Assembly: GCA_016195275.1 (NCBI GenBank)
Contig: JACPZZ010000002.1
Location: forward strand, 1-38,116
Reading direction: 5' to 3'
DNA: 38,116 bases
DNA from: Candidatus Aenigmatarchaeota archaeon
GTDB lineage: Archaea; Aenigmatarchaeota; Aenigmatarchaeia; JACPZZ01
In this document: piece after piece, positions 3,691-38,036 of the stretch
Numbering within the stretch: the first letter of the stretch is position 1
Layout: each line of letters starts with the position of its first letter
Position numbers and translations under genes: made by a program
The notes under the pieces: generated by a model
Told to the model about the DNA's origin: nothing
Databases searched by the model: none
Seen by the model: the letters and a program-made list of their open reading frames with translations, nothing else

Positions 3691-3731
3691 GTAGTGTTTT
3701 GATAAAATCAAATAACACTACCCATAGTGTT
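3691..3731 (+). promoter_or_regulatory. NrdR-box-like palindromes upstream of nrdR
   Basis: ACACTACCCATAGTGT (3715-3730) has both arms of the known NrdR box consensus (acaCwAtATaTwGtgt); only the centre differs. Overlapping it is a second inverted repeat, GTAGTGTT (3691-3698) with AACACTAC (3714-3721), enclosing TTGAT/ATCAA. A TATA-like GTATAATG lies near 3672. The location immediately before the regulator gene suggests autoregulation. The match was made by eye. Confidence 0.55.
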
Positions 3732-3741
3732 TGTGACCTGT

Positions 3742-4188
3742 ATGAAGTGCCCTTACTGTCCCGCGCCGGAAACCGAGGTTGTTGAGACCAGGGACAGCGA
3801 TCTTGACTCAATTCGCAGGAGACGGGAATGCACTAGGTGTGGGAAAAGATTCACCACTTACGAGAAATTAGACATCGCAGACCTGTTCGTCGTGAAACGC
3901 GACGGACGACGCGAAAAGTTTGACCGTACCAAGCTTCGCATAGGTATTATGAAAGCGTGCGAAAAAAGACCCGTTTCTCATGAAAAAATAGAGGCTGCAA
4001 TAAACGGGATAGAGAAAAAGCTGCGCGAGGGCGGGAAGAACGAGGTAAAAACGCGGCGGATTGGCGAGTTGGTCATGGAAAAACTTCGTGAACTGGACGA
4101 GGTCGCTTACATACGATTCGCTTCTGTTTACAGGAACTTTTCAGACATAAAATCTTTTGAAAAGGAAATCAGGACTTTAAAAAAATAA
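3742..4188 (+). CDS. nrdR: transcriptional repressor NrdR
   Basis: NrdR is a zinc-ribbon plus ATP-cone repressor that senses dNTP/ATP levels and shuts off ribonucleotide reductase genes. The protein starts MKCPYC, with Zn ligands CPYC and CTRCGKRF, followed by an ATP-cone from about residue 45 (VVKRDGRREKFDRTKLRIGI) to the end. ATG at 3742 is chosen because family members begin MxCPxC; the open frame reaches back to a GTG at 3727. It lies 52 bases upstream of nrdJ, its expected target. Length (148 aa) is typical. Confidence 0.93.
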   Translation: MKCPYCPAPETEVVETRDSDLDSIRRRRECTRCGKRFTTYEKLDIADLFVVKRDGRREKFDRTKLRIGIMKACEKRPVSHEKIEAAINGIEKKLREGGKNEVKTRRIGELVMEKLRELDEVAYIRFASVYRNFSDIKSFEKEIRTLKK

Positions 4189-4217: not shown

Positions 4218-4240
4218 TCGTTTAACGGAGGTTGTTTTGT

Positions 4241-7200
4241 ATGGTAATTGAGCAGATAGTGAAGCGTGATGGTGGTATTGTAAATTTCAACAGGGAAAAA
4301 ATAACAAGCGCCATTTTCAGGGCGGCGCGTTCTGTAGGCGGAAACGACAAGACTATCGCCGAAAAATTAAGCAATGAGGTTGTGCGATTACTCGAAGAGC
4401 GCGGCAAATTAGTTCCTACTGTGGAAGAAATACAGGATGTTGTAGAAAAAGTTTTAATTGAATCCGGTCATGCCGCGACCGCCAAAGCTTACATATTATA
4501 CAGGCAGAAGCGCGCGGAGTTGAGAGAGGAGAAGAAAAAGATACTTGAAAAAACCAACGTTGATGAGGTTGACAAGGTGTTTGATGTCAATGCTCTGCGT
4601 GTTCTGAAGTCCCGGTATCTAAGGAAAAGCGAGGATGGAAAACTCATAGAAACCCCCAAGCAGCTTTTCACAAGAGTCGCAACGCACACGGGCCTGGCAA
4701 ATCTTTTTTATGACGAAAAGGTTTTCAGCAAAGACGCAGCTACGACCCCGCACCCATCCGAAAACTTTGATCCTGCAGCAAATGAAAACCGTTATAAGAT
4801 CGGCAAATACTCGCTGAATCGTTACCACCTTGAAGCGCTGAAACGCGTTTATGACCGCACAAACAGCGAAGGCCGCATGAAAGTCGGCTGGGGCAGGTTC
4901 CTTTCGTTGATCGAGAATGGAGAAATGGACAGCCACGAAAAGGACATAGATAATTTCTACAACGTGATGACAACGAAGAAGTTCATGCCCAACACGCCTG
5001 CCATTGCGAACTTCGGCAATGTGCTTGGAATGGGATCCGCATGTTTCCACCCGGACCAGCTGATATCCGCAAAAGAAGGGGCTAAAAAAATAAGCGAAAT
5101 CGCGGTTGGCGACGAGGTATTAACCCATCGTGGGAGGTTCAGGAAAGTCAAAGAAATATTTATCAGGGAATCTAAATCTCTTCTTTCCTTCGACTGTAAA
5201 AAACTGCCCAACCAGACTTTGTTAGTAACCGATGAGCACCCTGTCTTTGCCTTAAAAGACGGCGAAGCTGGCTGGTATCCTGCATACATGCTCAGAGAAG
5301 GCGACAATGTAGCATTATCATACCCTGTTGAAACAAATGACATGGACAGCATAAAAATCAGCGATCTTGTGGAAGGCGTAACAGTTGAAAACGGGATGTG
5401 CTATTACGAGTACAAGGGCGGTAAATTTGATGCGTTAATACACGCTACAAAACAAGTGAAAGATAAAATTGAACTGGATTATGACCTGATGAAAGTTTTT
5501 GGGTTCTATTTGTCCGAAGGCAACGTTTCTGAAGGCGACTGCGTAAGATTCACCCTGTCTTCGGACGAATCGGACTATTGTAAATATATTATCTCGGTAA
5601 TGGAAAAGAAGTTTGGAATAACCGCGCGCACAGAGACTAACAAGGATCCTGAAAGGAAATGGTTATCGTTGCGTTTCCATTCAACAATACTCGCAAAATT
5701 CTTTGAAAAGTTGTTCGGAACCGGCTACGATAAAAAGAAAGTACCTGCCTGGATTATGACATTGCCCGTAGAGAAACAGAAGGGCCTGATGTCGGGCATG
5801 ATCCGCGGAGACGGGACGGTATTCAGGAATTGGAATAAAATGAATGCGAGATTAGTGATGTCGAATACCAACCTTGTATACGCATTCTGGCAGATGTGCA
5901 TGCGCTGCGGTGTGTTTGCAGCGTTGGGGAAGGAAAGCATGCCAAAGCTTGCGCGTATCCAACCAACAAGATGCACGCTCGGAACCGCAAAAGGACAGTT
6001 GCTGATGAACGAATTGTTCGATAAAACTTTGCAGGAAACTGTAGAGGAAGAGAAAACAATCGTAGTCAATGGCATTGTTTTCACCGAGATAGAGAAAATA
6101 GAAAAAACGGATTACAGCGGTGTTGTTTTCAACCTCGAAGTTGAAGAAGACCATTCTTATGTTGCAAACATGGTTTCTGTGCACAACTGCTTTGTTTTAG
6201 GAATAGATGATTCGATAGAAAGTATAATGGAATCGCTCAAACAGGCCGCAGTGATATTCAAATCAGGCGGCGGTTTAGGTTACAACTTCTCCAGGTTAAG
6301 GCCGGAAGGCGACATTGTGAAATCCACAAGCGGGATAGCATCAGGCCCGTTGTCATTTATGCGCTTGTTCGACACCATGACAGAAGTCATCAAACAAGGC
6401 GGTTGCGTCGCGACCGACACGTTAATACGGACAGACAAAGGTACAGTTCCAATAAGCAGTTTGTTGAATTGTGGCGCTTTTGGCGAGAACCCGACGAAAT
6501 ATTTTGTCTATGACGGCAAGGATTACAACCACGCATTAATAGCAATGAACAACGGACATGCAGAAGTGTTTAAAATAACCACTGAACTGGGCACAGAACT
6601 GAAATCCACATACAACCACATGGTTACCGTAGTTGATGCAAACGGGAAGTTCTCATGGAAACAGGTAATAGACCTTAAAGAAGGCGACTGGTTGGTTACT
6701 GTCTTGGGCGGCCATTCAGGCAAGGACATAGAGCTGTCTGAACCGGGAAAAATGCACTGCAACTCAAATGCGTTGAAAATCCCCAAAACACTTAACACCC
6801 AGCTAGCGGAAATACTGGGGCTGTACATGGCCGACGGATGTATAAACAACGGAAGATTCATCTTCACACTGAATTCACAGGACAGCGAACTGAAAGAAAG
6901 GATAAAATACCTGATGAAAGAAGTCTTTGGCCTGAAAGTCGGTAGCACATGGGACAAAAAAACGTATCTGGAACTTGTTTTCTACTCCAAAGCGCTGGGA
7001 AAATATTTTGAAAAAATGCATTGGAAGAAAAATAAATCCCCAGAAAGCTTTGTGCCCGATGAAATATTCCTGTCAAAGGAAAACGTGGCTTATGCGTTCT
7101 TGAAAGGTTTGTTCGAAGGCGATGCTACTGTGCACCCGGGCGGGTATCCAATTTTATACACAACTTCCAAGAAAATGGCGTCACAAGCCCAACAGTTACT

Positions 7201-10200
7201 GCTGGGGCTGGGGATGGTTTGCAAACTTCACCGCAAATCAGCAGAAAATATCAAAGGACACATAGGAAAAAATGACATCTATACTGCCATTGTGCTTACA
7301 GAAAGGTCGCTAAAACAATTCAAAGAAAAAATCGGGTTTGTAAGCACGAAAAAAAACAGGAAAATGGAAAATGTGGAAAAGGAAATAGAATACTCTGATG
7401 TTATACCGTATTCTCCGGAAATATTCGCATCCTATTACAAATGGGTTGGCAGGGGCTCTTCCAAAGGCAGGTCTAAAAAAGGGGCGAACCTGGAATATTA
7501 CCGCGCCGTGCACCATTATATCAAAGGCGACAGGAACATTACGAGAAAAACCCTTGAAAAGCTGATGAACAGATTTGAATTCCTGAAGAATGATAAAAGG
7601 CTGAAAGAGCTTTCAGACGGAAAATATTTCTTCACGAAAATAATAGCGATGGAAAAAACATACTTTCCGACAATGGAAATAGAAGTCCCTGTATCAGGCT
7701 GTTATACAGCCAACGGTTTTTTAGTTCATAACATCCGCCGCGGCGCAAACATGGGAATCCTGAACTCAAACCATCCTGACGTAGAAAAATTCATCAAGGC
7801 CAAGGAAGGCAACAAGATGCTGAGAAATTTCAACATCTCCGTGCTGATAATGCCGGACTTCTGGGAATATTATGAAAAAAACGAGCCGTATCCGTTAATC
7901 AATCCCCGCAGCGGCGAAATTATGCGAACCGTCAGTCCGAGGCTGTTGTTCGACATGATCGTTTATCAGGCGTGGGAATCCGCCGAACCTGGCGTGATAT
8001 TCTTCGACCATGTGAACAAATACAACCCGTTCTATGAACATCTTGGCCCGATTGTTACGACAAACCCGTGCGTAGCAGCAGATACGTTGGTTTCAACGGA
8101 AAAAGGGCTGGAAAGGATAGACTCAATAACATCAGAGAATATAAACGTAGACGCAAGAACGATGCCGGCCGAATCTGGACAATCTACTATGCAGCTGGGC
8201 GCATTGAATGTAAAGCTAGGAAAGGCGTTCAAGACTGGGTACAAAAAAACCTATAAGCTTGTTACAAAATCCGGCTACGAACTGACAGCTACAGAAGATC
8301 ACAAAATAATGACGGAAAAAGGCTGGAAAATTTTAAAAAGTTTGACACAAGAGGACAGCGTGCTGATACAATCAGGAGCTGGCAAATTTAACGAAAATCC
8401 AAAATTACCCTTCGAAGTTAACAACGAAATAATAGGAGAAAATGGAAGAAATTATGAATTAAACCTTCCGGCCTTATGGAATCACGAACTCGGCTTGTTA
8501 ATTGGTTGGTTGGTTGGGGACGGCTTCCTTAGTAAAAAGGATAACATATTGGGTCTGGTTTTCTCCAAAGAGGACGAAGAAGCAAGGCAAGTGATACAAC
8601 CCATCTTAGAGAAATATTGCAATAGAAAAATCAATTTGCTGGAATATGATAACGGCTGCGTGCAAGCAAGATCTGCGAGCAGATTTGTCGTTGATTTCTT
8701 CTCGAGCTTGGGTGTAACCGGCAGCAAGAAAGACAGCCGCGTCCCGCATTCTCTATTTACAGCCACAGAAGAAGCTGTGGCCGGTTTCTTGAAAGGATTG
8801 TTTTCGTCAGACGGGACAATAGGGCTCGGCATCAAAAGCAGGAATTACGCAAGGCTTAATTCCAGCTCCTTAAAACTGCTTAAAGACGTCCAGCTGCTGC
8901 TGCTTAACCTGGGAATAAGAAGCTCAATTTATGACCGCTTTACAAACCCGAAGAGCAAGAATTATGAGTTAAATATAAGCAAAGAAAATCTGCCCAGATT
9001 CCTGAATAAGATAGGCTTCTTACAAAGAGAAAATGTAGAAAAGGCTGATGAACTGCAAAGCTTCGAATTCTACAGGGAGAACTTCATAGACAATGTTAAA
9101 TCTATCGAAGATGCTGGCGAACAAGAAGTGTGGGATATCAACGAGCCTGTAACGCACTCGTTCGTTGCGAATGGTATTGTAGTGCACAACTGCGGCGAGG
9201 TTCTTCTTTATCCCAATGAACCGTGTAATCTCGGCTCGATCAATGTATGGTCTTTTGTCAAGGAAAGGGACGGAACCGTGTATTACGACTGGGAAGATTT
9301 GAAGAACACAGTACGCACCACGACAAGATTTTTGGACAACGTCATCGACATAAATAAGTGGCCGACCCCTGAAATCGAGCAGATGGCTCTGGCAACAAGA
9401 AAAGTCGGCCTTGGCATAATGGGGCTGGCAGACCTGCTCTACGAGCTAAGGTTGCCTTACAACTCGGAAGAAGGCCGCAAGTTTATGGAGAAGTTAATGG
9501 AATTCGTGAACTATTACTCCAAAGTCGAATCCTTGGAACTTGCGAAAGCGCGGGGGCCGATGCCGTACCTGGACAAAAGCTTCTACCCCAACGGCCGGTT
9601 GCCGTTTGCCGGATTCGAAGACAAAAGCAATTTGAACTTCGATTGGGACGCCCTGGTTGATGAGATAAAAATACACGGCATACGCAACGGCTACACGACA
9701 ATAATCGCGCCCACCGGAAGCATCTCGATGATCGCCGGCTGTTCATCGGGGATAGAACCGGTGTACACGCTGGCGTTCGAGAAGAACGTTGCAATAGGAA
9801 GCTTCTATTACGTCGATCCTGCTTTCGAAAAAATAATGCGCGAGGAGCGTTTGTTCGACGACCAGCTGATCAAGGACGTCGCCGCAAGCGGAGGAACAAT
9901 CCAAGGCGTTCCGTACGTGCCCAGCGTTATGAAAAAGACTTTTGTAACAGCCATGGACATAAGGCCGGAAGACCACATACGGACTTTGGCAGCGTTCCAG
10001 AGATGGACAGACTCCTCGATATCGAAGACCAACAACTTCCCCGCCGACGCTACTGTCGAGGATATGCGCGAAAGCTATTTGCTTGCGTACAAATTGGGCT
10101 GCAAAGACGTAACAGTATATAGGGACTCGTCGATAAAGAACCAGGTGCTTGTAGCCGTGAAAAAAGAAGAACCAAAGCGCATCTCCGTTGAAACCCACGG

Positions 10201-10333
10201 CCATGCTATGGACAGCAATGACACACCCGCGCACGAACTGAAAAACTGTAAAGAGTGTGGCGCAAGCCTGCTGAAAAAAGAAGGTTGTTTATCATGTCCG
10301 TCATGCGGCTGGGGAGTTTGCACATCGGCTTAA
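4241..10333 (+). CDS. nrdJ: class II (adenosylcobalamin) ribonucleotide reductase with three inteins
   Basis: Reduces ribonucleotides to deoxyribonucleotides with a B12-derived radical. The 2030-residue precursor is an 831-residue enzyme plus inteins of 382, 443 and 374 residues. Order: ATP-cone (1-90); N-extein to 267; intein 1; extein 650-721 with CFVLGIDDS and KSGGGLGYNFS; intein 2; extein 1165-1276 with RRGANMGIL; intein 3; C-extein 1651-2030 with PCGEVLLY, CNLGSIN, IAPTGSISMIAG and a C-terminal Cys cluster (CKECG, CPSCGWGVC) typical of NrdJ. No radical-generating small subunit gene is adjacent, which fits class II. ATG at 4241 is placed by GGAGG at 4227-4231. NrdR upstream is the likely repressor. 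Confidence 0.93.
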   Translation: MVIEQIVKRDGGIVNFNREKITSAIFRAARSVGGNDKTIAEKLSNEVVRLLEERGKLVPTVEEIQDVVEKVLIESGHAATAKAYILYRQKRAELREEKKKILEKTNVDEVDKVFDVNALRVLKSRYLRKSEDGKLIETPKQLFTRVATHTGLANLFYDEKVFSKDAATTPHPSENFDPAANENRYKIGKYSLNRYHLEALKRVYDRTNSEGRMKVGWGRFLSLIENGEMDSHEKDIDNFYNVMTTKKFMPNTPAIANFGNVLGMGSACFHPDQLISAKEGAKKISEIAVGDEVLTHRGRFRKVKEIFIRESKSLLSFDCKKLPNQTLLVTDEHPVFALKDGEAGWYPAYMLREGDNVALSYPVETNDMDSIKISDLVEGVTVENGMCYYEYKGGKFDALIHATKQVKDKIELDYDLMKVFGFYLSEGNVSEGDCVRFTLSSDESDYCKYIISVMEKKFGITARTETNKDPERKWLSLRFHSTILAKFFEKLFGTGYDKKKVPAWIMTLPVEKQKGLMSGMIRGDGTVFRNWNKMNARLVMSNTNLVYAFWQMCMRCGVFAALGKESMPKLARIQPTRCTLGTAKGQLLMNELFDKTLQETVEEEKTIVVNGIVFTEIEKIEKTDYSGVVFNLEVEEDHSYVANMVSVHNCFVLGIDDSIESIMESLKQAAVIFKSGGGLGYNFSRLRPEGDIVKSTSGIASGPLSFMRLFDTMTEVIKQGGCVATDTLIRTDKGTVPISSLLNCGAFGENPTKYFVYDGKDYNHALIAMNNGHAEVFKITTELGTELKSTYNHMVTVVDANGKFSWKQVIDLKEGDWLVTVLGGHSGKDIELSEPGKMHCNSNALKIPKTLNTQLAEILGLYMADGCINNGRFIFTLNSQDSELKERIKYLMKEVFGLKVGSTWDKKTYLELVFYSKALGKYFEKMHWKKNKSPESFVPDEIFLSKENVAYAFLKGLFEGDATVHPGGYPILYTTSKKMASQAQQLLLGLGMVCKLHRKSAENIKGHIGKNDIYTAIVLTERSLKQFKEKIGFVSTKKNRKMENVEKEIEYSDVIPYSPEIFASYYKWVGRGSSKGRSKKGANLEYYRAVHHYIKGDRNITRKTLEKLMNRFEFLKNDKRLKELSDGKYFFTKIIAMEKTYFPTMEIEVPVSGCYTANGFLVHNIRRGANMGILNSNHPDVEKFIKAKEGNKMLRNFNISVLIMPDFWEYYEKNEPYPLINPRSGEIMRTVSPRLLFDMIVYQAWESAEPGVIFFDHVNKYNPFYEHLGPIVTTNPCVAADTLVSTEKGLERIDSITSENINVDARTMPAESGQSTMQLGALNVKLGKAFKTGYKKTYKLVTKSGYELTATEDHKIMTEKGWKILKSLTQEDSVLIQSGAGKFNENPKLPFEVNNEIIGENGRNYELNLPALWNHELGLLIGWLVGDGFLSKKDNILGLVFSKEDEEARQVIQPILEKYCNRKINLLEYDNGCVQARSASRFVVDFFSSLGVTGSKKDSRVPHSLFTATEEAVAGFLKGLFSSDGTIGLGIKSRNYARLNSSSLKLLKDVQLLLLNLGIRSSIYDRFTNPKSKNYELNISKENLPRFLNKIGFLQRENVEKADELQSFEFYRENFIDNVKSIEDAGEQEVWDINEPVTHSFVANGIVVHNCGEVLLYPNEPCNLGSINVWSFVKERDGTVYYDWEDLKNTVRTTTRFLDNVIDINKWPTPEIEQMALATRKVGLGIMGLADLLYELRLPYNSEEGRKFMEKLMEFVNYYSKVESLELAKARGPMPYLDKSFYPNGRLPFAGFEDKSNLNFDWDALVDEIKIHGIRNGYTTIIAPTGSISMIAGCSSGIEPVYTLAFEKNVAIGSFYYVDPAFEKIMREERLFDDQLIKDVAASGGTIQGVPYVPSVMKKTFVTAMDIRPEDHIRTLAAFQRWTDSSISKTNNFPADATVEDMRESYLLAYKLGCKDVTVYRDSSIKNQVLVAVKKEEPKRISVETHGHAMDSNDTPAHELKNCKECGASLLKKEGCLSCPSCGWGVCTSA
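5042..6187 (+). mobile_element. intein 1 of nrdJ, with LAGLIDADG endonuclease
   Basis: 382 codons. It starts at Cys (CFHPDQLIS, block A), has the block B Thr/His pair in VTDEHPVF, LAGLIDADG motifs VFGFYLSEGN and LMSGMIRGDGT with acidic residues kept, and ends VSVHN. The +1 residue is Cys of CFVLGI. Removing it restores GSACFVLGIDDS, the conserved active-site cysteine region of the reductase. Both splicing and endonuclease parts look functional. Confidence 0.92.
6404..7732 (+). mobile_element. intein 2 of nrdJ, with LAGLIDADG endonuclease; +1 residue is Ile
   Basis: 443 codons. It starts Cys-Val-Ala-Thr-Asp-Thr-Leu-Ile, keeps a block B-like STYNHMV, LAGLIDADG motifs ILGLYMADG and FLKGLFEGDA, and ends FLVHN. 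About 90 extra residues precede block F, perhaps a DNA-recognition insert. The residue after the terminal Asn is Ile (codon ATC at 7733-7735), not the Cys, Ser or Thr needed in ordinary splicing. Removal gives KQGG-IRRGANMG, which matches the family except that the variable position is often Thr. Confidence 0.88.
8069..9190 (+). mobile_element. intein 3 of nrdJ, with LAGLIDADG endonuclease
   Basis: 374 codons. It starts CVAADTLVS, has block B TATEDHKIM, LAGLIDADG motifs LLIGWLVGDG and FLKGLFSSDG, and ends ANGIVVHN. The +1 residue is Cys. Removal restores TTNPCGEVLLYPNEPCNLGSIN-type sequence, so the element sits immediately before the cysteine that in class II reductases forms the thiyl radical. 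All expected splicing residues are present. Confidence 0.92.
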
Positions 10334-32456: not shown

Positions 32457-33698
32457 CTATGGATAATGACCAATAGACGAAAGCCTTAACGCCAATGAGA
32501 ACAATGCTAATAACAATGAAAATGCCATGGGAAGCATAAAACCAGAAACGCCTTTTACATTGCCCAAAGGCAAAAGCTTGCAAACCTTTTTCGATATTCC
32601 CGCGTTATGCACGCTGTCAATAACCTCGTCTATATCTTTGTAACTTGCACCGCTTTCTTCGGCCAAGCCGGAAAAGGAAACGGACTTGACATATATTCCG
32701 CGCGCCTCCATGTCTTTTTGAAGTTTGTCGCCTCGCACCATATTCCTTGCCTGCGTTCGTGACATCGTGCGTCCGGATCCATGACACGTCGAACAAAATG
32801 TTTCTGACGCTTTTTCGCTGCCAACCAATAAGTACGAACCCGTTTCCATTGAGCCGCCGATAATTACAGGCGAACCGTCGCCGCGGAACTCTTTTGGTAT
32901 TTCTTCGCGGCCCGCCGGATACGAACCCGTGGCGCCTTTCCTGTGCACGACAACTTCCTTAATGGAGCCGTCAACTTTATGTTTTTCCAGTGACGCGCGA
33001 TTGTGAGCCACATCAAAAACCTGTCGCAGGCCCAGCGATTCGGCGTCTTGCTTGAACGTTTCGGAAAAAACTTCGCGTATTCTGTGCAATATCACTTGTC
33101 GGTTTGCAAAAGACATATTCACTCCGCATTTCATCGCTTTGAAATAGTCCTGGCCTTCCGGCGAGCTAAACGGCGCGCACGCAAGCTCGCGGTCGAGGAT
33201 TTTTATTTTGTATTTACTTTCCATCACGTCGAGAAATGTTTGCAGATAATCCGTGCCTATTTGATGGCCGAATCCGCGACTGCCACAATGGAACATCACC
33301 ACAATCTGGTTTTCAAACAATCCCCATTTCTTCGCAAGCGTTTCGTCTGCAATGTTTTCTTTCTTCACAACCTGTATTTCCAGGTAATGGTTGCCGGACC
33401 CCAAAGTTCCGATCTGGTTAAAACCGCGGTCAATCGCTTTCGAAGAAACTTTTGAGGTGTCGGCGCCTTCGGCGCATCCGTTTAGCTCTGTCCTTTCTAA
33501 ATCTTCGTCCCAGCCATAGCCGTTTTTAACAGCCCAATGCCCGCCTTCGACTATTAATTTCCTGAACTGGTCTTTCGTTAATTTGACAAATCCTGTAGAA
33601 CCGACGCCGGCTGGAACCTTTGCAAAAAGCTTGTCGACTAACTGTTTCATGTGCGGCTTGACGTCTTTCAGCGTTAAATTTGTCAAAACCAAGCGCAT
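32457..33698 (-). CDS. rtcB: RtcB RNA-splicing ligase, intact C-terminal 80 percent with hydrophobic extension
   Basis: RtcB joins RNA 3'-phosphate or cyclic phosphate ends to 5'-OH ends after tRNA splicing, using GTP and Mn. From RLVLTNLTLKDVKPHMKQLV to LGNVKG the frame is well conserved: TLGSGNHYLEIQ, MFHCGSRGFGHQ, VFDVAHN, and VVVHRKGATGSYP (guanylylated His), STCHGSGR. The upstream part of the gene is interrupted (see 33699-33981), including the NCG cysteine ligand. Normal RtcB stops after the final KG; here 30 codons follow (32460-32549) with a hydrophobic helix MAFSLLLALFSLALRL. ATG 33698 is only a formal start. Confidence 0.8.
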   Translation of the reverse strand: MRLVLTNLTLKDVKPHMKQLVDKLFAKVPAGVGSTGFVKLTKDQFRKLIVEGGHWAVKNGYGWDEDLERTELNGCAEGADTSKVSSKAIDRGFNQIGTLGSGNHYLEIQVVKKENIADETLAKKWGLFENQIVVMFHCGSRGFGHQIGTDYLQTFLDVMESKYKIKILDRELACAPFSSPEGQDYFKAMKCGVNMSFANRQVILHRIREVFSETFKQDAESLGLRQVFDVAHNRASLEKHKVDGSIKEVVVHRKGATGSYPAGREEIPKEFRGDGSPVIIGGSMETGSYLLVGSEKASETFCSTCHGSGRTMSRTQARNMVRGDKLQKDMEARGIYVKSVSFSGLAEESGASYKDIDEVIDSVHNAGISKKVCKLLPLGNVKGVSGFMLPMAFSLLLALFSLALRLSSIGHYP

Positions 33699-34439: not shown

Positions 34440-36161
34440 ATGGGTAGCATGTTCAAAGTAACCGCTCTGCGCGGTGCGCTAAGAAAAAAGCTGTTCAAGA
34501 CTGAACAGAAAATACAATTATATAACAGCGTCTACCCTATATTTCTTCGGCGCCAGAAAACGCCGCTTCTCATAACCAGCCACCCTGAAAACATACACGA
34601 CATCAATATTCGCTATCCGCTGATAGACCCGTTTCTTTACGCGAACATAGCTTGGGACACCGAAAAAAGCGAACTCGTTTACAAGGTCGTGGAACCGGTG
34701 CTGACAGACGAGGACAAAAAGATAATCGCGGACATAACACAGGATTTGATGGAACTGCTGGAGGTAGAGCTGTCTTCTATCACGAAAAAAGCCGAGGCCA
34801 TAAAATACCTTGAAGAACACGTTAAGAGGATAATAAACGAAGCCGGGATAAACGTACCGAAGCACAAATACGGAAAAATCTTTTACTACATCTACCGCAA
34901 TTTCATTGGCCTGAACGAGATAGAACCTTTCATGAATGACCCGCGCATAGAAGACGTAGGCTGCGATGGCGTCGGCGTTCCGATTTACGTGGTGCACAGG
35001 GTTTTCGGGTCTATAAAAACCAATGTAAAATTCGACAGCGTTGATGTGTTGAGAAATCTTGTTGTAAAAATCGCGGAAAGGTGCGGCCGTTACATAAGCT
35101 ACGCCGAACCCATACTTGATGGAAGCCTGCCTGACGGCTCGCGTGCCCACGCATCGTTGTCTTCGGACGTTACGACGCACGGCCCGACTCTTTCCATAAG
35201 GAAGTTCAAGGAAGACCCGTTTTCGCCAACAGACATAGTAGGCGTAGGAACTGCCTCGACCGAACTTATGTCTTACCTGTGGACTGCTGTTGAGCATGGT
35301 TCAAGCATACTTATCTGCGGGGGTGTTGCAACAGGCAAAACTTCAATGCTAAACTGTTTGTCAATGTTCATAAAACCGGAAGAGAAAATCGTCACAATAG
35401 AGGACACGCGCGAACTTAGTCTGCCGCACGAAAACTGGATCCCAAGCGTTTCCCGCGCAGGTTTCGGCGTACCCACCGCAACAGGGGAAAAGTACGGGGA
35501 AGTAAGCCTGTTCGATTTGTTGAAAGGATCCTTCCGCCAGAATCCGGATTACGTGATTGTCGGCGAGGTCCGTGGAAAGGAAGCGTATGTCATGTTCCAA
35601 GGCATGGCTTCAGGCCACGCGTCAATGACAACAATGCACGCAGACTCGATTGAAGGCGTTATGCGCAGGCTGATAACGCCGCCGATAGAATTGCCGCCCT
35701 CTCTGATAGAAACATTGGATATGATCATAGTTCTGTCGCACGCGCGCGAAATAGGAAAATCCGCAAGGCGTATCATGGAAATAGACGAAATAGAATCGAT
35801 GGACGCTGCGACCGGCAGAGTGCATCACGTACGCGCCTACGCCTGGGATCCTATTACGGACACGCACCAAAAAAAAGAGGACAGCATACTTCTGCACAAG
35901 ATTGCGGCTAAAATGGGAATCACCCTCGAATCTTTGATAAAAGGCAAGGAAGAAAAGGAAAAAGTCCTGGACTGGATGCTGCAAAGGAAAGTCACCAAAT
36001 TCGAAGACGTGGCCAATATGGTTAACCTGTACTACAAAGACAGGCAGACGCTGATGGATTGGGTTGAAAAGAATATAGAACCGTATTCCACCATGAGCAA
36101 GGAGGATGTCAAAAGACTCGCCTCCACAGCAGCCGGGATAAAAATACTCGGAGAAAAATAG
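34440..36161 (+). CDS. type II/IV secretion-type ATPase (archaellum/pilus FlaI/VirB11 class)
   Basis: 573-residue hexameric motor ATPase of the GspE/FlaI/TadA superfamily. N-terminal helical region (1-165) precedes the ATPase core: NEIEPFMNDPRIEDVGCDG, Walker A CGGVATGKTS (about 292-301), Asp box TIEDTREL, Walker B PDYVIVGEVRG and His box SGHASMTTMHADS. It powers assembly of archaeal type IV filaments at the membrane. The usual next gene, a FlaJ/TadC-like membrane platform, is not seen; instead a rearranged KaiC-like gene and TnpB material follow. Confidence 0.92.
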   Translation: MGSMFKVTALRGALRKKLFKTEQKIQLYNSVYPIFLRRQKTPLLITSHPENIHDINIRYPLIDPFLYANIAWDTEKSELVYKVVEPVLTDEDKKIIADITQDLMELLEVELSSITKKAEAIKYLEEHVKRIINEAGINVPKHKYGKIFYYIYRNFIGLNEIEPFMNDPRIEDVGCDGVGVPIYVVHRVFGSIKTNVKFDSVDVLRNLVVKIAERCGRYISYAEPILDGSLPDGSRAHASLSSDVTTHGPTLSIRKFKEDPFSPTDIVGVGTASTELMSYLWTAVEHGSSILICGGVATGKTSMLNCLSMFIKPEEKIVTIEDTRELSLPHENWIPSVSRAGFGVPTATGEKYGEVSLFDLLKGSFRQNPDYVIVGEVRGKEAYVMFQGMASGHASMTTMHADSIEGVMRRLITPPIELPPSLIETLDMIIVLSHAREIGKSARRIMEIDEIESMDAATGRVHHVRAYAWDPITDTHQKKEDSILLHKIAAKMGITLESLIKGKEEKEKVLDWMLQRKVTKFEDVANMVNLYYKDRQTLMDWVEKNIEPYSTMSKEDVKRLASTAAGIKILGEK

Positions 36162-36195
36162 TATCTTTTTTTCAACTTTAACTTGTTAGCGGGAA

Positions 36196-36219
36196 ATCCC
36201 ACATGCTTACCGGTGGGAT
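36196..36219 (+). repeat. hairpin at probable left end of an IS605-type element
   Basis: ATCCCAC (36196-36202) and GTGGGAT (36213-36219) form a stem with a ten-base loop, 60 bases before the TnpB-like start at 36282. Subterminal hairpins are typical of IS200/IS605 ends. Nearby AGCGGGAAATC also resembles the folded right end at 37006-37076. Confidence 0.45.
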
Positions 36220-36281
36220 GAGAGCGGACATAAGAAATGATAGGCATATAATAAATACATAGACGAACAAAAGGGAATGTA

Positions 36282-37001
36282 ATGAGAACTTACAAATTCA
36301 GAATTTATCCATTAAAGAAACAAGAAGTACAAATGAAAGAACACCTTTGGATAGAAAAGAATTTATGGAACAAACTTCTTGAAGCTAACAAGAAAAGATA
36401 TGACGAAACAAAGAAATTCCTGACAAAAAGCGAAATGCAAATAATGGTAAAGAACAGGTTCGGTGAAAAGGGTGTTTACATATCCTTTGAGGAGAGCCCT
36501 GAAATAGTAAAAACCGACATGAAATTATTCGGCATGGACTTTGACACGCTGGAAGCCGAAAAAAAAGTTGTTTTCGTCAAATACGACCCTTACCACATAG
36601 AAGACATTTTTGATATCATAGAATCCAATGTCCGTTTAACCGGCGCAACCCGGGTTTGCATAGACTCGATATCGGCGCTGGGCCTTTATGTGCGTGATAT
36701 CCCGGAACTTAGGCGCATGATATTCAACCTTGGCATGACGCTTCGAAAGCTGAACTGCACATCGATCATCACTTCAGAAATCCCGCCAGGGGCTTCGGGC
36801 ATATCGAGGTTCGGTGTTGAAGAATTCATCAGCGACAGCGTTGTGGTTCTTTATTACTTTAAAACGGAAACAACATTCACCCGCGCCGTAACGATCTGGA
36901 AAATGCGCGCCACGAACCATTCAAAGAAGATACACCCGTATGAAATCGGCGAAAAAGGCGTTATTACATACCCGCAGGAAGAAGCTGTCATGAAAGGGTA
37001 A
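36282..37001 (+). CDS. chimeric ORF: TnpB N-terminus fused in frame to the C-terminal two thirds of a KaiC-like ATPase
   Basis: 239 residues. Residues 1-58 (MRTYKFRIYPLKKQEVQMKE, through FLTKSEMQIMVKN) are the helix-turn-helix start of IS605 OrfB/TnpB. From about 59 the sequence is KaiC-like: GEKGVYISFEESPEIVKTDM, Walker B RVCIDSISALGLYV, TSIITSEIPPGASG, ISRFGVEEFISDSVVVLYYF and the usual C-terminus. The KaiC N-terminus with Walker A is missing, so ATP binding is probably lost. The gene lies after the pilus-type ATPase, where a KaiC/FlaH-like gene would fit. Fusion is seen directly; whether it is expressed is unknown. Confidence 0.8.
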   Translation: MRTYKFRIYPLKKQEVQMKEHLWIEKNLWNKLLEANKKRYDETKKFLTKSEMQIMVKNRFGEKGVYISFEESPEIVKTDMKLFGMDFDTLEAEKKVVFVKYDPYHIEDIFDIIESNVRLTGATRVCIDSISALGLYVRDIPELRRMIFNLGMTLRKLNCTSIITSEIPPGASGISRFGVEEFISDSVVVLYYFKTETTFTRAVTIWKMRATNHSKKIHPYEIGEKGVITYPQEEAVMKG

Positions 37002-37005
37002 ACTA

Positions 37006-37076
37006 CCCACCGCTACACGGGAAATCATTGATTTCCTGTGCACGAAAACCTAATGGTTTTCGTTGAAGCGTGTGGG
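37006..37076 (-). ncRNA. reRNA/omega-RNA-like folded right end of the TnpB element
   Basis: CCCACCGCT (37006-37014) pairs with AGCG-T-GTGGG (37067-37076), enclosing two hairpins: CACGGGAAATCA (37016-37027) with TGATTTCCTGTG (37029-37040), and ACGAAAACC (37042-37050) with GGTTTTCGT (37055-37063). This closed three-stem fold overlaps the 3' end of tnpB and stops at the element border, as guide RNA scaffolds of TnpB do. The guide would then begin in the flanking kaiC-like gene. RNA function is inferred from the fold. Confidence 0.55.
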
Positions 37077-38036
37077 CATTCCATAGGTTGACAAAATATG
37101 GTTCACAGAACTCGATTCGCCAACCGCATCGGAACGCAGAAGTCCGTTTACTGGGACTCGTGTCTTGGAAATCTGGATAGAACTCAGATTGGTAAGACCG
37201 TGAGTTTTGTTCCGCTCCAAGACGGATTTGACAGCGATTGCCAACGAGGCTTTCCTGTCACTATTTACAATCATACCGCACTTACATTTGTAAAGGGCGT
37301 AATTCCCAGTCTGGTGTCCGTTGTTTACTGCACCGCAGTGCGGGCACCATTTGGAAGTGTGGTAAGCGTCAACTTCGTGAATAGGAATTTGGAACATCCC
37401 GCTGTTGGATTTAAGAAATTCCTTGAACTTACTGTAAGGTATTGTACTTATTTTTCGGTTGGTCTTCTTGTTAAAATTTCCTCTTTTGCCTCTGATATTT
37501 TTCAGGTTTTCAACCGCAATTCCGGCATTATAAAATTTGGCAAGATTCACAATTTCCTTAACAATTTGTCCGCTTCTTGTTTTTACAAAATCAGACTGTT
37601 TACGTTTCAATCTTTCAAGGTGCTGGCTTGCCCTGTGAGAGCCTTTATCGGCAAGGCTCTTGAGATGCGCCCTTCTTTCGCTGTATCTTCTTTGACGAAT
37701 CGCAACATCCCTGCCGAAGTAAAGCTGTCTGGCGACTTTGGAAGTTTGAGCATCAAAAACCGTAACAGCGGCGAGTGTGGAAGAACCTACATCGATGCCA
37801 ACAACGTATCTTTTATCGGTATCCGGCTTGGCAAAGCCTTTTTCGAGAATAACGGCAATTCTACCGTTTTTCAAAAGGGAAACGTTGTCAAAAATCCAGC
37901 CGTCATTAAGGAAAGAACCAAATCTTTGAAACTGCTTGTCGGTTCTTATCGGAATTACAAAACTCTTTTTAGGGGAATAGGTAATTTTGAAACAGGGTTT
38001 ATCTCTTTTGGTATGAACAAGTTTGAGCCTGTCAAC
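37050..38036 (-). pseudogene. tnpB: TnpB (IS605 OrfB) RuvC nuclease, N-terminus missing
   Basis: The open frame runs from 38036 to 37050 (328 codons; first ATG at 37874). RuvC residues are intact: Asp in YVVGIDVGSS, Glu in IAVENLKNIRG, Asp in NSDRKASLAIA; the zinc ribbon is CPHCG with KCKCG. Upstream coding sequence (SPKKSFVIPIRTDKQFQRFG) matches the middle of TnpB, but the first 90-110 residues are absent and a TAA stands at 38037-38039. A TnpB N-terminus lies on the opposite strand at 36282-36455. The nuclease half could still be made, but a full RNA-guided enzyme is unlikely from this locus. Confidence 0.8.

Follow-up and report, generated by a model that had tools for sequence, protein, structure and literature searches.

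Probable damage by three insertion sequences to an aenigmatarchaeal pilus operon, with a TnpB–KaiC fusion that is most likely a recent pseudogene

The window analysed here, a stretch of 38,116 bases from a Candidatus Aenigmatarchaeota archaeon, is one whole contig (C11), and its end coincides with the contig end. It belongs to an assembly of 1.07 Mb in 34 contigs, 83% complete, for which the closest named relatives are metagenome-assembled genomes of Candidatus Aenigmatarchaeota from groundwater. Close to the contig end (Table 1), an intact pilB-type ATPase gene is followed by the left end of a tnpB element (tnpB-A), by the first codons of tnpB-A reading in frame into a kaiC that lacks its beginning, by part of another tnpB (tnpB-B) on the opposite strand, and by the left end of a third insertion sequence (IS), in which the contig stops. 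Elsewhere in the window, a ribonucleotide reductase frame of 2033 aa (4232-10333, plus strand), by eye apparently carrying three inteins, is preceded by an nrdR-like gene (3727-4188). An RtcB-like gene (32457-33698, minus strand), again as judged by eye, seems to be without its first ~95 residues and to extend beyond the usual C-terminal end; it is possibly another disrupted gene.

Table 1. Features at the pilB–kaiC locus, in window coordinates.
Feature	Position	Strand	Remarks
pilB-type secretion/pilus ATPase (T2SSE)	34440..36161	+	intact, 573 aa; PF00437, E 2e-32
Left end of tnpB-A element	36178..36281	+	hairpin GCGGGAAATCCCAC...GGTGGGAT; aligns with the corresponding ends of further genomic copies; left limit approximate
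tnpB-A, first 58 codons	36282..36457	+	PF12323
kaiC remainder without N-terminus and P-loop	36458..37001	+	in frame with tnpB-A; PF06745 from position 45
Right end of tnpB-B element	37000..37082	-	structured repeat, starts at kaiC stop codon; limits approximate
tnpB-B 3' part (RuvC, TNB domains)	37050..38024	-	PF07282, PF01385; 5' part on contig C8
9-bp target duplication AACAAGTTT of third IS	38016..38024		second copy on C8 just after position 141
Left end of third IS, terminal inverted repeat GAGCCTGTCAACTTAA	38025..38116	+	cut by contig end; right end is C8:1-141

The upstream gene, pilB, is 82-86% identical to its congeneric counterparts over the stretch compared, and its match to PilB3_C falls below the cut-off for that family. 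All four same-genus genomes have the intact order pilB-kaiC-pilC1, with kaiC an open frame of 228-239 aa in which the P-loop GTCGTGKTT is preserved; pilC2 follows pilC1 in both of the congeners that were read further, and the order pilB-kaiC-pilC also occurs in other families of the class. The pilC1 orthologue of the present genome (81%) is found at C8:605, close to the start of that contig. Because the four congeners keep the operon intact, the fusion of tnpB-A to kaiC is derived, and it is seen in one genome only. It was not found in 40 related genomes or in GTDB contigs: in searches with the fusion as query, every KaiC match starts at query residue 52 or later, and the sole TnpB match covers residues 1-58 only.

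The fused open reading frame (36282-37001, plus strand) encodes 239 aa, of which residues 2-45 match the N-terminal TnpB domain HTH_OrfB_IS605 (PF12323) and residues 58-233 match KaiC (PF06745). The latter match begins only at profile position 45, and the P-loop part is thus absent; i.e., the first ~50 kaiC residues are missing, and the congeneric GTCGTGKTT (Walker A) has no counterpart in the alignment. The remainder of the RecA core is present in that alignment (EE after strand 2, Walker B, and the C-terminal strands), and this kept part is 91-94% identical to intact congeneric kaiC. The junction falls at 36457/36458, with the tnpB copies of the genome matching as far as 36457 and kaiC orthologues matching beyond it, kaiC picking up again at its 'RFGEKGVYISFEE' after the tnpB-A remnant. 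At the break, tnpB reads GAACAG/TGG, kaiC of the nearest congener reads ACCAG/GTTCGG, and the window reads GAACAGGTTCGG; tnpB has only CAG in common with this kaiC, and AG or less with that of the other congeners. The domain matches and the junction comparison bear out the original prediction of a 58-codon TnpB start fused in frame, behind the pilus ATPase, to a KaiC part devoid of Walker A.

The left end of tnpB-A starts ~20 bases 3' of the pilB stop codon. A TATA-like CATATAATAAATAC upstream of the tnpB-A ATG is a possible promoter, and the fused frame is perhaps transcribed from this promoter of the element itself. A RuvC domain is absent from tnpB-A in the window, where nothing of the gene follows codon 58; the sister on C27, which continues normally past that codon, has one. 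What stands at the fusion locus is therefore a remnant and not a working TnpB. Recurrent breakage of tnpB-A near codon 58 was also considered; an internal copy on C6 is truncated elsewhere (~49 codons), and most other short copies are contig ends. Two tnpB-A copies, on C6 (L018) and C9 (L022), bear an extra hairpin array (GGAAAAGCAAACTTTTCC, GGAAATTTAATAATTTCC, and others) before tnpB, and the other copies are without it. Across the 1.07-Mb genome there are 16 TnpB N-terminal matches, 19 TnpB TNB-domain matches, and one clear Y1 transposase, a TnpA at C8:16637. No tnpA was seen inside the tnpB elements, which the C8 enzyme could in principle move in trans.

The original prediction had placed the RuvC half of the same TnpB on the opposite strand past kaiC, with about 90 codons missing between the two parts. 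A RuvC/TNB part is indeed found there (37050-37874, minus strand; PF01385 and PF07282), in a frame that stays open upstream as far as about 38044, and the right end of its element recurs with 90% identity at C22:13952-14027 and C15:9768-9843. This part is continued on C8. The first 141 bases of C8 end in TTAAGTTGACAGGCTC, an inverted copy of the terminal repeat of the third IS. Directly after them stands AACAAGTTT, the nonamer that also lies just before the repeat in the window, so that this IS has GAGCCTGTCAACTTAA at both ends and a 9-bp target duplication. Next on C8 come the N-terminal part of tnpB-B (minus strand), a left end common to other copies of the element, and pilC1. Once the third IS and one copy of the duplication are omitted, tnpB-B across C8 and C11 is a single open frame of 429 codons in which the OrfB_IS605 and TNB domains accompany the N-terminal part. 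Its alignment to the C27 sister of tnpB-A spans 216 aa at 23% identity. Since tnpB-B is completed on C8 and the two lineages are this distant, the two TnpB pieces seen in the window do not derive from a single gene; tnpB-B belongs to another tnpB-only element, distantly related to the first, which has inserted between kaiC and pilC1. The supposed gap of ~90 codons thus dissolves: tnpB-B is complete, and tnpB-A lost everything after codon 58. Beyond the two sites in Table 1, the third IS recurs at the ends of C12 and C31 (where its left end is identical) and at C4:22591-22730, breaking several contigs; its middle is not present in the contigs read.

The reading that we favour, and hold to be very probable, is that the pilus operon pilB-kaiC-pilC1-pilC2 was damaged by these three separate insertion sequences and that the fusion is most likely a recent pseudogene. 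We infer the following order of events. As a tnpB-only element of IS200/IS605 type, tnpB-A would have inserted ~20 bp 3' of pilB; a later deletion at only 2-3 bp of microhomology would have taken out everything in tnpB-A beyond codon 58 together with the right end of the element, as well as the first ~50 kaiC codons, and by chance left a single open frame. Insertion of tnpB-B on the opposite strand, between the kaiC stop codon and pilC1, would have been followed by insertion of the third IS, with its inverted repeats, into tnpB-B; this would have generated the 9-bp duplication and, the third IS being repeated, would account for the assembly breaking at tnpB-B. Deletion by illegitimate joining after the tnpB-A insertion would be the simplest account because so little sequence is common to the two sides of the break. 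The loss from kaiC would be recent because the kept part is as conserved as in the congeners, with 4 private changes, all conservative; its dN is low, the same as among intact orthologues, although near-saturated synonymous sites allow only a coarse view of selection on the fusion. Such absence of decay would also be compatible with continued use of the protein. Of the RecA fold, the frame has lost strand 1, the P-loop, and helix 1; AlphaFold models have a mean pLDDT of 70 for the fusion (residues 1-40 below 50) versus 89 for the intact orthologue. With the P-loop gone and the TnpB part modelled at very low confidence, the fused frame is most likely a young pseudogene whose ATPase is broken, presumably with loss of function.

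An artefact of assembly is the best of the alternatives, albeit an unlikely one: the true locus would hold the full tnpB-A element (as on C27) after pilB, together with an intact kaiC. Positions 36315-36455 of the window are identical to the end of C15 over exactly 141 bp, and positions 36326-36457 to the end of C27 over 132 bp; the ends of C12 and C31 likewise coincide over a stretch of the third IS that is exactly 141 bases long. Exact overlaps of 141 bases would point to an assembly graph built with k = 141, in which a branch point probably coincides with the fusion; the route taken from pilB into kaiC is then the choice of the assembler, with synteny as its sole backing. The repeat would have two ways in (the pilB side and C15) and two ways out (kaiC and C27), such that the ambiguity concerns the pairing of flanks. 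A wrong walk through the repeat swaps flanks; however, it cannot create the passage from repeat to mid-kaiC, which reads must have contained. Synteny supports the join as given, pilB and kaiC being expected neighbours. Moreover, the kaiC 5' end, which an intact gene would need and which the original prediction had suggested seeking in the genome, was not found in the assembly, where searches returned nothing but the fragment in the window itself and paralogues, 37-50% identical, whose P-loop is intact. A match at C24:660 was rejected as this 5' end, as it sits in an intact RecA/RadA-like gene.

Far less probable is that the fusion works as a new HTH-KaiC protein, as the original prediction proposed, with the TnpB N-terminal segment replacing that of KaiC in a regulator that does not bind ATP. 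Expressed from the promoter of the element, it would partner the pilus ATPase as a KaiC protein headed by TnpB sequence and free of nucleotide; we see equally little likelihood of this. The frame is open, its remainder is conserved, and in the model a helix from the TnpB segment takes the position of KaiC helix 1; however, that segment is of low confidence and its placement is biased by the alignment, the P-loop is lost, and the fusion occurs in one genome only. In the related archaellum system, filaments assemble only if ArlH, the KaiC-like partner of the ATPase ArlI, can bind ATP (PMC8978795). A working fusion would represent a motor regulator altered by a transposon and a case of TnpB N-terminus capture, though nothing beyond the open frame supports such capture.

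That one TnpB was split, whether by an inversion with ends in TnpB and kaiC or by recombination between two copies, matches the opposite orientation of the TnpB parts flanking kaiC, but it can practically be set aside, as the parts come from tnpB genes about 23% identical, the minus-strand gene belongs to a different element with its own left end adjoining pilC1 on C8 and a target duplication within it, and no reciprocal product (the kaiC N-terminus joined to the TnpB end) was found in the 83% complete assembly. The layout can be explained with no inversion at all.

Several known systems come close to the present case. Both tnpB elements resemble tnpB-only (IS1341-type) IS200/IS605 elements in their HTH_OrfB, RuvC, and TNB domains, in having hairpin ends and numerous genomic copies, and in that no tnpA was seen inside them; they differ in that tnpB-A is cut after codon 58, apparently by deletion, and tnpB-B is interrupted by another IS. 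The arrangement of a KaiC-like gene, encoding a single KaiC domain, between genes for a T2SSE ATPase and the platform proteins recalls archaeal ArlH/FlaH with ArlI, although here the P-loop part is lost in the fusion; by sequence, FlaH (4YDS; E 6e-4) is a much more distant match to the intact kaiC orthologue than are KaiC and the archaeal KaiC-like proteins of one domain. IS-mediated disruption with a chance in-frame fusion has the same elements of insertion plus adjacent deletion, restriction to one genome, and a new N-terminus supplied by the element, and we find no essential difference between it and the present case.

Ultimately, the layout is ordinary transposon damage, and neither one split gene nor a new kind of protein. 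It also carries a caution, in that a contig end inside an IS, together with two pieces of distantly related tnpB genes in opposite orientation, can mimic a single split gene. For the organism itself, the locus represents the pilus operon of an aenigmatarchaeon caught in the course of being eroded by several IS elements.
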